The notes beneath the pieces were generated by a model, which saw only the letters and a list, made by a program, of their open reading frames with translations, did no database searches and was not told the origin of the DNA. A DNA stretch of 53,106 nt from Acidobacteriota bacterium (GTDB lineage Bacteria; Acidobacteriota; Blastocatellia; HR10), in NCBI GenBank assembly GCA_030550025.1, contig JAUQQC010000015.1, positions 1-53,106 on the forward strand, in the 5' to 3' direction. Within the stretch, counting starts at the first letter, position 1, and every line of letters starts with the position of its first letter. This document shows, one piece after another, positions 43,466 through 47,241 of this stretch. The translations under genes and the position numbers were made by a program.

Positions 43466-43741
43466 TCATTGCCGCCGGGAGACGGTGACGTCGTCAACGA
43501 TCCCGACGATGGTGCAATCGGTGGGGACCTCGCGCGGGAGGAATGGAAAGCTCGCCTCGCGCCCGCGACACCAGAAGACGAGTTCGCCCGCTCCGGCGCC
43601 GACCGAATCCACGGCGACTAGGGGCTTCCCCACAGGCTTTCCCTCCGGGGTGAGCGGCTGAATCAGGAGCAGTTTCAACCCTTGCAGCGTCTCGTTCTTC
43701 GCTGTACAGACGATGCGTCCGATGACCCGAGCCAGGTGCAT
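43466..43741 (-). CDS. EutN/CcmL-type microcompartment vertex protein (isolated)
   Basis: A 91-residue protein matching the BMC-P (EutN/CcmL/CsoS4) family from end to end: MHLARVIGRIVCT, the GLKLLLIQPL segment, the VAVDSVGAGAGELVFWCRG core, and the end IVGIVDDVTV. These proteins form pentamers that cap the vertices of microcompartment shells. No BMC-H or BMC-T shell gene and no encapsulated enzyme is in the window, so either the shell genes are elsewhere or this is a stand-alone member. GATGAGGAG precedes the ATG. Confidence 0.85.
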   Translation of the reverse strand: MHLARVIGRIVCTAKNETLQGLKLLLIQPLTPEGKPVGKPLVAVDSVGAGAGELVFWCRGREASFPFLPREVPTDCTIVGIVDDVTVSRRQ

Positions 43742-43807: not shown

Positions 43808-44140
43808 CTAGGACGACGCGCTCGCGCAGTGCGGGCACGGGCAGAGAGCGCGAAGTTCAGCGAACGGATAGATGCCCGTACTGTGCCCGTCGCTCCATTG
43901 GAAGTGCAGGGCATACTGGCCGACCAGCTCGACGCTCACGATCGTGAGGTCGTCCGGGATCATCTCGGGAGCGAGCAAGGGGCGACCGGTCAGCTCTTCC
44001 ACGCACAGCGCGCAGCGACAGTGGCGCCGTAGATAGCTCGCGCGATAGGTGCTCGCGTGCCCATCGCTCCACAGGATGTGAATCTCGGACGCTCCGATCT
44101 TCTTGATCGCAGTGGGGCGAACGGATGCGTGTGCGCTCAT
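43808..44140 (-). CDS. DUF971 (GBBH-like N-terminal domain) protein
   Basis: A 110-residue single-domain protein. It has the DUF971 pattern ILWSDGHASTYRASYLRRHCRCALCVEE with a CxCxxC cluster, and a second cysteine cluster CPCPHC at the C-terminus. In several bacteria DUF971 is fused to Mrp/ApbC proteins; here the separate gene lies 31 bases after mrp, which supports a role with it in Fe-S or metal handling. The exact function is not established. Confidence 0.8.
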   Translation of the reverse strand: MSAHASVRPTAIKKIGASEIHILWSDGHASTYRASYLRRHCRCALCVEELTGRPLLAPEMIPDDLTIVSVELVGQYALHFQWSDGHSTGIYPFAELRALCPCPHCASASS

Positions 44141-44171: not shown

Positions 44172-45257
44172 TCAGGTCGAGACTTCCTCGATCCGCAGCG
44201 GGGTCATCTGGTAGTTCACGATGCTGATCTGCGCGGCCAGTCGCTCGGCGATCGCGCGATACGCCTGAGCCGCCGGCGATTCCGGATCGGCGAGCACGAT
44301 CGGCGTCCCCGTATCGGCCTGTTGACGAATTCGGACGTCAATGGGGATCTCTCCGAGGAAGGGGACGCCCAGTTCTTCGCTCGCCCGACGCGCACCGCCG
44401 TGGCCGAAGATCTCCTCGCGCGCGCCACAGTGCGAGCAGACGTAATAGCTCATGTTCTCCACGATCCCCAGAATGGGGATATTCGTCTGCTGGAACATGC
44501 GCAGCGTCTTCATCGAGATCACCAACCCCACGTCTTGCGGAGTGGAGACGATGACGGCTCCGGTGACGGGCACCGATTGCGCCAACGTCAAATGGACATC
44601 GCCCGTACCGGGCGGCAGATCCACAAGCAGATAATCCAACTCTCCCCATTCCACGTCGAAGAGGCACTGTTGCAGAGCCTTGTGCGCCATCGGGCCGCGC
44701 CAGATCAGGGGCTTATCGCCGGGCACAAATAATCCCATCGAGATGAAGCGCAGGCCGTGATGTTCGGCCGGTAGGATGCGGTTGTCGCGGACTTCGGCCT
44801 GCTGCCCGTGCCCGAGCATGATGGGGACGGCCGGGCCGTAGATGTCGGCGTCGAGCAATCCGACCCGCGCGCCGCTCGCACGCCAAGCGGCCGCCAGATT
44901 CACGGCGACGGTGGATTTGCCCACGCCGCCTTTGCCGCTGCCGACGGCGACGAGGTTTCGCACTCCGGCTAGCGCCGATCGGTCGAGCCCAAGATGAGGT
45001 CGGACCTCCGCCGTCATATTCACCCGCACCTCGCGCACGCCCTCCAGTTGCGCGACGGCTCGCCGCGCCTCTTCCCGCATCCGCTCCTTCACGGGACAAG
45101 CCGGCGTCGTCAGGTTGATGTCGAAACTCACGACGGAGTCTTCGATCTTGAGATTCTTGATGAATCCCAGCGAGACGATGTCCCGATGCAGATCGGGATC
45201 CACGACCTGACGCAGAGCCCGGAGGACATCGCTCTCGCTCACCTTCTTGCCGAACAT
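44172..45257 (-). CDS. mrp: Mrp/ApbC-family Fe-S cluster carrier ATPase
   Basis: A 361-residue protein. The N-terminal DUF59 (MIP18) domain (about residues 1-95, VVDPDLHRDIVSLGFIKNL) is followed by the deviant Walker A GSGKGGVGKST (about 105-115), LLVDLPPGTGDVHLT, and the cluster-binding C-x2-C in YYVCSHCG near residue 280. Mrp proteins bind and transfer [4Fe-4S] clusters. The ATG at 45257 follows AAAGGAGGTGCAC; a GTG two codons upstream is less likely. It lies between erpA and a DUF971 gene in one probable operon. Confidence 0.92.
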   Translation of the reverse strand: MFGKKVSESDVLRALRQVVDPDLHRDIVSLGFIKNLKIEDSVVSFDINLTTPACPVKERMREEARRAVAQLEGVREVRVNMTAEVRPHLGLDRSALAGVRNLVAVGSGKGGVGKSTVAVNLAAAWRASGARVGLLDADIYGPAVPIMLGHGQQAEVRDNRILPAEHHGLRFISMGLFVPGDKPLIWRGPMAHKALQQCLFDVEWGELDYLLVDLPPGTGDVHLTLAQSVPVTGAVIVSTPQDVGLVISMKTLRMFQQTNIPILGIVENMSYYVCSHCGAREEIFGHGGARRASEELGVPFLGEIPIDVRIRQQADTGTPIVLADPESPAAQAYRAIAERLAAQISIVNYQMTPLRIEEVST

Positions 45258-45315
45258 GTGCACCTCCTTTTCGGAGGGGTTCGGCGAAGCGCTGGGCGTT
45301 TCGCCAAAAGCCCCA

Positions 45316-45648
45316 TCAGACCGTGAAGCTGCTGCCGCAGCCGCAGGTCCCGCGCGCGTTCGGATTCCGGAAGGTGAAACCCGAGCCCATCACGGAACGC
45401 ACGTAATCGATCTCGACGCCGTTCAGGTATCGCTTGCTCAGCGGATCCACGAAGACGCGAATCCCTTGGATCTCCAGGACCTCGTCCCCGCTTTCGGGCG
45501 CGTCGTCCAACGCGAGGTCGTACTGAAATCCCGAGCATCCTCCCGGGATGACGCGCACGCGCAGGCCAACCTGCTCGGGCGAGAGATTCTCGCTCTCGAT
45601 GAACCGCTTGATCTCGGCCGCTGCCGCTTCGGTGATCGTGAGTGTCAT
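45316..45648 (-). CDS. erpA: A-type Fe-S cluster carrier (ErpA/IscA-like)
   Basis: A 110-residue HesB/IscA-family carrier that hands Fe-S clusters to target proteins. The three conserved cysteines are in PGGCSGFQYDLAL and GTCGCGSSF, in the standard positions. The ATG at 45648 is preceded by GGAGGG; a long in-frame extension upstream is not real because it covers the divergent promoter. It is the first gene of the erpA-mrp-DUF971 set and faces a SufR-like repressor. Confidence 0.92.
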   Translation of the reverse strand: MTLTITEAAAAEIKRFIESENLSPEQVGLRVRVIPGGCSGFQYDLALDDAPESGDEVLEIQGIRVFVDPLSKRYLNGVEIDYVRSVMGSGFTFRNPNARGTCGCGSSFTV

Positions 45649-45686: not shown

Positions 45687-45725
45687 ATCTTACCAGCTCG
45701 CCGCGAAATAGGCAATATTTTGCCT
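45687..45725 (-). promoter_or_regulatory. erpA promoter with palindromic operator
   Basis: On the minus strand TTGCCT (45710-45715) and TAAGAT (45687-45692) lie 17 bases apart, forming the erpA promoter. The -35 box is one half of a perfect palindrome AGGCAA-TATT-TTGCCT (45710-45725). A repressor bound there would block erpA transcription. The divergent SufR-like gene is the obvious candidate to bind it. The sequence differs from the CAAC-N6-GTTG sites reported for cyanobacterial SufR. Confidence 0.6.
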
Positions 45726-45760
45726 GAATATTCTGCGTTTGCGGAGGCGCGGACCTGTGG

Positions 45761-45766
45761 TACAAT
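45761..45766 (+). promoter_or_regulatory. Possible -10 box of the SufR-like gene
   Basis: TACAAT lies 12 bases before the ATG at 45779, with a poor -35 (TTGCGG at 45739-45744). The start point would be only a few bases before the start codon, so the transcript would be nearly leaderless. The operator at 45710-45725 lies about 35 bases upstream of it. Confidence 0.4.
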
Positions 45767-45778
45767 ACCCCAGGACTT

Positions 45779-46441
45779 ATGGAGCGATGGTCGGTCGCCA
45801 ATACGTCCACGCGCATGCGCGTCGTCGAGCGGCTCAAGCAGTGGGGAAGCGCGACGGTCGCGGAATTGGCGCGCGAGCTGCGGCTCTCGGGCGTGAGCCT
45901 CCGCCGCCATCTCGATCTTTTGGAGCGCGATCGTTTGGTCACGGCCCAGATTCAGCCCCGAGGGCGCGGGCGTCCGGTGAAGGTCTATCGGCTCACGGAG
46001 GAAGCCGATCGGTTTTTCCCCGAGCGCTATAGTGAGTTCGCCGTGGAGGTGCTCGAAGGCGTGCGCGAGCTTTTTGGCGAGCGCGCCCTCCATCGGTTGT
46101 TGCAACATCGGACGGCGAAGCTGGTCGCCCGGCTCCGGGCGCGCTTGGTGGGCAAATCACTGCGAGAGCGCGTGGAGCTGTTGACTGCGGCGATGACGGA
46201 GATGGGCTTCCTCGCCTCATGGGAGAAGATCGGCGCGGGTCGCTTCCTCTTGACCCAGGCTCACTGTCCCCTGCGTCGCATCGCATCGGTCTGCCCGGAG
46301 CTCTGCGAGCAAGAGTTGCGCATGCACGCGGAGGTCCTCCGCGCGTGCGTCACCCGCGAGTGTTTCATCCAGCACGGGGAGGCCGTCTGTCAGTACCTGA
46401 TTCGTTCCACTCGATCGCACCCCGCTTCTCTAGCTCGGTGA
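45779..46441 (+). CDS. sufR: SufR-like Fe-S-sensing transcriptional repressor
   Basis: A 220-residue regulator. An N-terminal winged helix-turn-helix (about residues 13-75, WGSATVAELARELRLSGVSL and RGRGRPVKVYRLT) is followed by a C-terminal region with cysteines C163, C176, C190 and C204. The spacing C-x12-C-x13-C-x13-C is one residue short of the C-x12-C-x13-C-x14-C signature described for SufR. SufR binds a cluster and represses Fe-S assembly genes when clusters are plentiful. The divergent erpA-mrp operon supports the same role here. A start at Met13 is possible. Confidence 0.75.
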   Translation: MERWSVANTSTRMRVVERLKQWGSATVAELARELRLSGVSLRRHLDLLERDRLVTAQIQPRGRGRPVKVYRLTEEADRFFPERYSEFAVEVLEGVRELFGERALHRLLQHRTAKLVARLRARLVGKSLRERVELLTAAMTEMGFLASWEKIGAGRFLLTQAHCPLRRIASVCPELCEQELRMHAEVLRACVTRECFIQHGEAVCQYLIRSTRSHPASLAR

Positions 46442-46491: not shown

Positions 46492-47241
46492 ATGACGACC
46501 AAGCCCGCGATCATTTACGGCTGGGCTCCCGTGCGCGAGGCCATTCGCGCCCGAAGTCGAGCAGTGCACAAGGTGCTCGTCGCCCGAGGGGGGAAGCAAC
46601 ACCGCCGGAACGAGCTGTTGGCCGAGGCGCGCAGCGCGGGCGTTCCCGTGCATCTTGTCTCGCGCGCGGTCTTGGATCGGTTGGCTCCGCAGGCCGTCCA
46701 TCAAGGGGTCATCGCGTATTTGGCGGCGGGCGAATACGCTGATCCCGAACAGATTCTGGCAAATCTCACGGAGGAGACGCTGCTGGTGCTCTTGGATCAG
46801 GTCGAGGATCCGCGCAACTTAGGCGCGATCCTGCGCACGGCGCACGGCGCGGGCGCGCAGGCCGTCGTGATCCCCAAGGATCGCGCCGTCGGTCTGACGG
46901 AGGTCGTCGCCAAGACCTCGGCCGGAGCATGGGTCTATACGCCACTGGCGCGCGTGACGAATCTCGCCGCCTTCTGCCGCCAGCTGCGCGAGCGCGCCGT
47001 GCGCATCATCGGCGTGGAAGCCGATGCTCCTGTCCCCTATACGGACGTCGCGTACACGGGTCCCATCGCCTTCGTCTTCGGCAGTGAGGGAAGGGGATTG
47101 CGCCGCCTCACTCGCGCCCACTGCGATCTCATCGTCTCCATCCCGATGAAGGGACGGATCACTTCGCTCAACGTCTCGGTCGCCGTCGGAATCGTCCTCT
47201 TCGAGGCGCTTCGACAGCGCACTCAAGGGGCGCGCTCGTGA
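46492..47241 (+). CDS. rlmB: 23S rRNA 2'-O-methyltransferase RlmB (SpoU/TrmH family)
   Basis: A 249-residue SPOUT methyltransferase. An N-terminal substrate-binding domain (about residues 1-75) is followed by the knotted domain with motif 1 DQVEDPRNLGAILRTAHGAG (about 101-120), motif 2 FVFGSEGRGLRR (about 192) and motif 3 IPMKGRITSLNVSVAVGIVL (about 218-237). It uses S-adenosylmethionine to methylate a ribose in 23S rRNA; the G2251 target is inferred from the family. It follows the SufR-like gene by 50 bases. Confidence 0.9.
   Translation: MTTKPAIIYGWAPVREAIRARSRAVHKVLVARGGKQHRRNELLAEARSAGVPVHLVSRAVLDRLAPQAVHQGVIAYLAAGEYADPEQILANLTEETLLVLLDQVEDPRNLGAILRTAHGAGAQAVVIPKDRAVGLTEVVAKTSAGAWVYTPLARVTNLAAFCRQLRERAVRIIGVEADAPVPYTDVAYTGPIAFVFGSEGRGLRRLTRAHCDLIVSIPMKGRITSLNVSVAVGIVLFEALRQRTQGARS

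Follow-up and report, generated by a model that had tools for sequence, protein, structure and literature searches.

The closest described systems are those of the SufR family, represented by Sll0088 of Synechocystis, Rv1460 of M. tuberculosis and the SufR proteins of S. avermitilis and C. glutamicum, in which a winged helix-turn-helix (HTH) domain is combined with a C-terminal cysteine domain of the spacing C-X12-C-X27-C. Their genes lie divergent from the genes they control or are the first gene of the operon, and repression depends on the cluster. The published signature of the family has four cysteines, C-X12-C-X13-C-X14-C (PMC8593673). In the case of Rv1460 it has been shown that each cysteine of C203-X12-C216-X27-C244 is needed (PMC6034842), and C175, C188 and C216 are among the four cysteines named for the C. 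glutamicum SufR (PMC11995493). The Acidobacteriota are outside the phyla named for SufR in the part of a 2021 review that was consulted (PMC8593673). A second type of sensor is formed by Rrf2-type regulators such as IscR and RisR, which belong to another protein family and likewise control Fe-S biogenesis genes; RisR of M. xanthus binds T(t/g)GAC-N7-GTCC, and its holo form represses transcription in that it covers promoter elements (PMC9973013). Among the titles and abstract openings listed by our literature searches, none described a SufR homolog with a link to mrp or erpA.

The regulator gene studied here is located at positions 45,779 to 46,441 (plus strand) of a window of 53,106 nucleotides, i.e. 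the whole stretch of DNA analysed, from a member of the Acidobacteriota (class Blastocatellia). The predicted protein of 220 residues shares its architecture with the known SufRs: it has a winged HTH at about residues 9 to 72, with Pfam matches to HTH_20 and HTH_5, and C163, C176 and C204 (plus C172, C190 and C195) lie in the C-terminal domain. The profile SufR_cyano (TIGR02702) matches residues 11-208 with an E value of 1.4e-30, and its positions 2-208 of 208 are covered, so the architecture is full-length; the score of 106.6 bits is below the curated cut-off of 178.8 bits. Across the phylum, this profile had a match in 99 of 396 genomes and exceeded the cut-off in none of the 396. An Rrf2 domain was sought in the protein by Pfam and gave no match, and a Foldseek search of the PDB with the structure model (mean pLDDT 82.6) gave HTH-level and weak matches alone, with TM scores to the query of at most about 0.4. 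The same locus is present in the named genus records Bacterium HR10 and uncultured Blastocatellia bacterium, with protein identities of 79% and 90%, respectively. The window genome has a second SufR-type gene (L037:7291-8130, G000:C29:301404), which lacks suf or carrier neighbours and outscores the window gene on SufR_cyano (122 bits).

An earlier note on this DNA had called the cysteine signature near-SufR. For the triad the likeness is complete, because C163-X12-C176-X27-C204 is exactly the spacing of Rv1460 and also that of C175, C188 and C216 of the C. glutamicum SufR, and these three cysteines are shared by all 16 aligned homologs, in which positions 190 and 195 vary and C190 is missing several times (alignment A1). 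It does not extend to the four-cysteine form: the window regulator reads C-X12-C-X13-C-X13-C, with X13 in place of X14 as the last spacing. As far as sequence can tell, the regulator resembles SufR in its working. However, since its score is under the curated cut-off, its four-cysteine spacing deviates, and neither the published operator nor a suf target was found for it (see below), we file it as a SufR-related branch and not as SufR itself.

As the earlier note had it, the regulator is divergent from three genes, all on the minus strand. Domain matches identify these as erpA, encoding an A-type Fe-S carrier (45,316 to 45,648) and the sole PF01521 match in the window genome; mrp/apbC, encoding a P-loop Fe-S carrier with an FeS_assembly_P domain (44,172 to 45,263); and a gene for a GBBH-like_N protein (43,808 to 44,140), a Pfam family that we take to be the former DUF971. 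Unlike the known SufRs, the window regulator adjoins erpA-mrp-DUF971 and not suf. After DUF971, downstream of the carrier operon, follows a lone EutN/CcmL shell-vertex gene (43,466 to 43,741, minus strand), which is also present in G005 (L134:4620-4889), the nearest relative outside the genus and a member of the same family. The intergenic region contains the perfect palindrome AGGCAA-TATT-TTGCCT (45,710 to 45,725), which we propose as the operator on the basis of its sequence, its conservation and a genome scan. Its overlap with the -35 of erpA, already pointed out earlier, was confirmed in that the best-scoring promoter on the minus strand is TTGCCT-17-TAAGAT, whose predicted -35 (45,710 to 45,715) is one arm of the palindrome and whose predicted -10 is at 45,687 to 45,692; with a simpler promoter score, a second erpA candidate scores equally well in G001 and others. 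The predicted promoter of the regulator itself on the plus strand, TTGCGG-16-TACAAT, has a weak -35 (45,739 to 45,744) and a -10 (45,761 to 45,766) that is conserved in all five divergent loci described below. Because this promoter begins 13 bases beyond the palindrome, the carrier operon is the clear target of the putative operator, and self-control is uncertain.

Five genomes of the genus were scanned (G000 to G004, G000 being the window genome), four of which hold the locus. The conservation on which the earlier note had made its proposal depend was found in these four: none of the 12 arm columns varies and a single loop base does, so that 15 of the 16 columns of the palindrome are invariant, as against 68 of the 120 remaining columns between the genes (p 0.0027 in a Fisher test that takes columns to be independent). 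In G001, G002 and G003 the erpA -35 is inside the palindrome too. The block of conservation spans about 28 columns, which is more than the palindrome. Without mismatch, AGGCAAN4TTGCCT occurs once per genome in G000 to G003, each time between the regulator and erpA. It is absent from G004, a genome that is 73% complete and also lacks an erpA match and a regulator ortholog match; since the erpA match is missing as well, G004 says nothing on the site, and we dropped its apparent loss there as evidence. Versions with one mismatch are no commoner in the genus genomes than a reversed control pattern; there are seven such sites, none recurring next to the same gene, of which five lie within probable genes (mechanical ORF listing, judged by eye) and the other two (L066 and L061) are ambiguous. 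The genome scan for the palindrome, as the earlier note had suggested, gave no second perfect site and none at suf. A wider regulon is thus unsupported, and was rejected for perfect sites.

We searched 58 related genomes at the protein level and obtained matches in 37. A homolog adjoins mrp in 28 of the 58: in five it is divergent from erpA-mrp (the four of the genus and G005), and in 23 it lies upstream of mrp on the same strand, with a gap of up to about 0.5 kb. DUF971 follows mrp in the window and in G005, and the other divergent stretches end before its position. Among the 23 codirectional loci, erpA is just downstream in 8, longer flanks without erpA are present in 10 (family f6), and the remaining 5 stretches are too short to show it. 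Directly 3' of the regulator, on the same strand, rlmB is found in all five divergent loci (46,492 to 47,241, plus strand, in the window). The three genomes G006, G008 and G009 of the sister family f2 all have erpA-mrp-DUF971, yet they gave no mrp-linked regulator match, and inspection by eye of the upstream regions (L147-L149) gave no AGGCAA-N4-TTGCCT; G006 has a one-mismatch CAAC-N6-TTTG upstream of its carrier genes.

The tree was built from 63 of 64 homolog rows and 241 columns; L100 was left out because its match holds stop codons, and rows L035 and L041 are the same gene of G004. It has long branches and is unrooted, as no named cyanobacterial or actinobacterial SufR was included. A split with a support of 97 separates the 28 mrp-linked homologs, together with 13 further homologs of the class, from a side that includes C29:301404 of the window genome and three homologs from other Acidobacteriota (G192, G126 and G081). 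The latter three belong to the same family as the window regulator and have the same divergent layout, but they are divergent from sufB and linked to the suf core; their intergenic regions (L136, L144 and L118) contain no match to CAAC-N6-GTTG with up to one mismatch. The five window-type proteins group together (support 99), as do the 23 codirectional proteins (96). The tree does not unite all 28 mrp-linked homologs in one clade, though such a clade was not rejected either (p-AU 0.251); a grouping of the five window-type with the three suf-divergent proteins was rejected (p-AU 9e-6). Two carrier-side homologs that are not next to mrp are divergent from an enolase gene (L133:7765-8436, f9) and from an HgmA_N-domain gene (L127:8430-9158, f6).

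The canonical SufR box, CAAC-N6-GTTG, was sought in the 120 bases upstream of the homologs, with expectations derived from dinucleotide shuffles. With at most one mismatch it is found upstream of 12 of the 23 codirectional homologs (1.27 expected), and these 12 are not independent events as there are near-copies among relatives; three of the boxes are exact (0.05 expected). In the 22 rows not next to mrp there is a single one (0.76 expected). The relatives of the class thus share the box with the known SufRs. In 11 of the 12 cases GTTG runs into a -35 of TTGACA or TTGACC, a position that is partly given by construction because the choice of the best-scoring promoter favours TTGACA; the twelfth box (L047, at -103) is probably due to chance. 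None of the 10 f6 loci next to mrp has the box within one mismatch at the -35; several carry AT-rich dyads at the -35 instead, and others none.

The window locus has three mismatches to CAAC-N6-GTTG. The earlier statement that its site differs from the published one therefore stands, as AGGCAA-N4-TTGCCT sets the genus apart from the known SufRs, but the site does not seem to be fundamentally different, since relatives keep the box at the same -35. On the erpA strand, G005 reads TAAC-AAAAAT-GTTGCCT, G003 AGG-CAAAAT-GTTGCCT and G000 AGG-CAAAAT-ATTGCCT, from which it follows that the right half, on the -35, has been kept; G005 likewise has TTGCCT as its -35, with a spacer of 17 bases, inside the TAAC-N6-GTTG box. 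We infer a path, of which the tips are observed, along which the left arm changed in the genus and yielded a new, tighter dyad. Given the enrichment of the box upstream of the codirectional homologs and the location of 11 of 12 boxes on the -35, the "non-standard" palindrome seems to be the standard SufR operator in a form peculiar to this lineage, placed at a constant point of the promoter. The exact or one-mismatch boxes at the same -35 in class relatives, together with TAAC-N6-GTTG in G005, would make the window site a local variant.

It should be noted that the recognition-helix region of G005 is nearly the same as that of the genus, yet its left arm differs and no perfect dyad remains. 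Near-identical recognition helices facing a changed operator arm, and a conserved block wider than the palindrome, would fit the palindrome being the operator of another factor, with the SufR-like protein using a different or degenerate site nearby. We consider this unlikely, because a perfect palindrome that occurs once per genome, and next to this regulator alone, fits a dedicated neighbour regulator, because relatives keep the SufR box at the same place in the promoter, and because the Rrf2 regulator of suf, described next, has a different conserved dyad.

The absence of suf core genes from the locus, as stated in the earlier note, was borne out: sufB and sufD of the window genome are on another contig, behind an Rrf2 gene; the names sufC, sufS, sufU and sufT for other genes there were given by eye from translations. 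The Rrf2 gene is directly upstream of the suf operon (L060:10953-11420, G000:C29; Pfam Rrf2 E 1.4e-31). All 8 genomes of the order that were examined (G000-G006 and G008) have the Rrf2-sufB pair, with a conserved dyad of the TTGACAAA..AGTCAG type (TTGAC-N6-GTCAG type) over the predicted -35 of the Rrf2 promoter; this dyad is similar but not identical to the RisR site of M. xanthus. The Rrf2 member of the window genome thus precedes sufB, not erpA, and differs from the window regulator in protein family. No palindrome of the AGGCAA-N4-TTGCCT form was found at suf, and CAAC-N6-GTTG has 14 exact matches in the window genome, compared with 23 of the reversed control, none of which is at suf or at either regulator. 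Since suf has an Rrf2 gene with a dyad of its own and the carriers have the SufR branch, cluster assembly and cluster delivery seem to differ in both regulator and operator.

These observations also bear on the view that the window gene encodes an ordinary global SufR, acting in addition on suf and further Fe-S genes by way of diverged sites that exact scans would miss. The drift of operators between lineages makes degenerate sites conceivable, and the second SufR-type gene of the genome is on the suf-linked side of the tree. However, this view is improbable in the light of the absence of a second perfect palindrome from all five genus genomes, the location of five of the seven one-mismatch sites inside probable genes, the lack of any of the 14 CAAC-N6-GTTG matches at suf and their number below that of the control, and the possession by the suf operon of its own Rrf2 gene and dyad.

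We therefore return to the reading that the window gene encodes a SufR-type, Fe-S-cluster-sensing repressor dedicated to cluster carriers, which, judged from sequence comparison, is probably correct. The earlier suggestion of a SufR-related branch assigned to carriers agrees with the adjacency to mrp in 28 of 58 genomes, the 97 split from the sufB-divergent homologs and the presence of suf behind an Rrf2 gene. Points against it are the SufR_cyano score under the cut-off, the three mismatches to CAAC-N6-GTTG, the imperfect dyad of G005 in spite of its similar recognition helix, the lack of the box at the -35 of the f6 loci, the width of the conserved block and the distance of the regulator's own -35. 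According to this reading, the repressor would, as a dimer with a [4Fe-4S] cluster ligated by C163, C176 and C204, bind AGGCAA-N4-TTGCCT and cover the erpA -35, so that erpA-mrp-DUF971 would be kept low while clusters are plentiful; upon loss or oxidation of the cluster, the repressor would be released and the carriers made. The suf assembly operon would not be a target of this regulator and would respond to its own Rrf2 sensor. What this scheme adds to the sequence comparison, namely the binding of a cluster and of DNA, repression and the nature of the signal, is proposed. Activation of the carrier operon by the window regulator is very unlikely: a cluster-free activator is known, apo-IscR at the E. 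coli suf genes (PMC9973013), and nothing specific speaks for one here, whereas a dyad over the -35 hexamer is in a repressing position and the characterised SufRs are described as repressors in the sources consulted. It is hardly credible that the palindrome has no regulatory role and arose by chance or as a structural (hairpin) feature: even if palindromes with 6-base arms are not rare and one-mismatch versions are no commoner than the control, all four genomes show invariant arms and the fixed -35 position, and the site lies upstream of the predicted erpA transcription start.

In summary, the best reading of these data is that there are two Fe-S circuits, one in which an Rrf2 regulator would serve cluster assembly and one in which the SufR branch would serve the cluster carriers. 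For the Blastocatellia as a whole we can only tentatively propose that Fe-S homeostasis is divided between the two sensors, the Rrf2 protein responding to cluster supply on behalf of suf and the SufR branch on behalf of the carriers. The carrier operator would then have been remodelled at least two times (CAAC-N6-GTTG, AGGCAA-N4-TTGCCT and AT-rich dyads) without leaving the -35, and the DNA specificity of the regulator would have turned over while the circuit was conserved. A SufR-related branch in another phylum may thus be tied to cluster delivery by ErpA and Mrp, with assembly being left to an Rrf2 gene. If true, this would mean that cells can set cluster assembly and cluster delivery separately, and the graded set of operators within one class would make the co-change of repressor and site testable.
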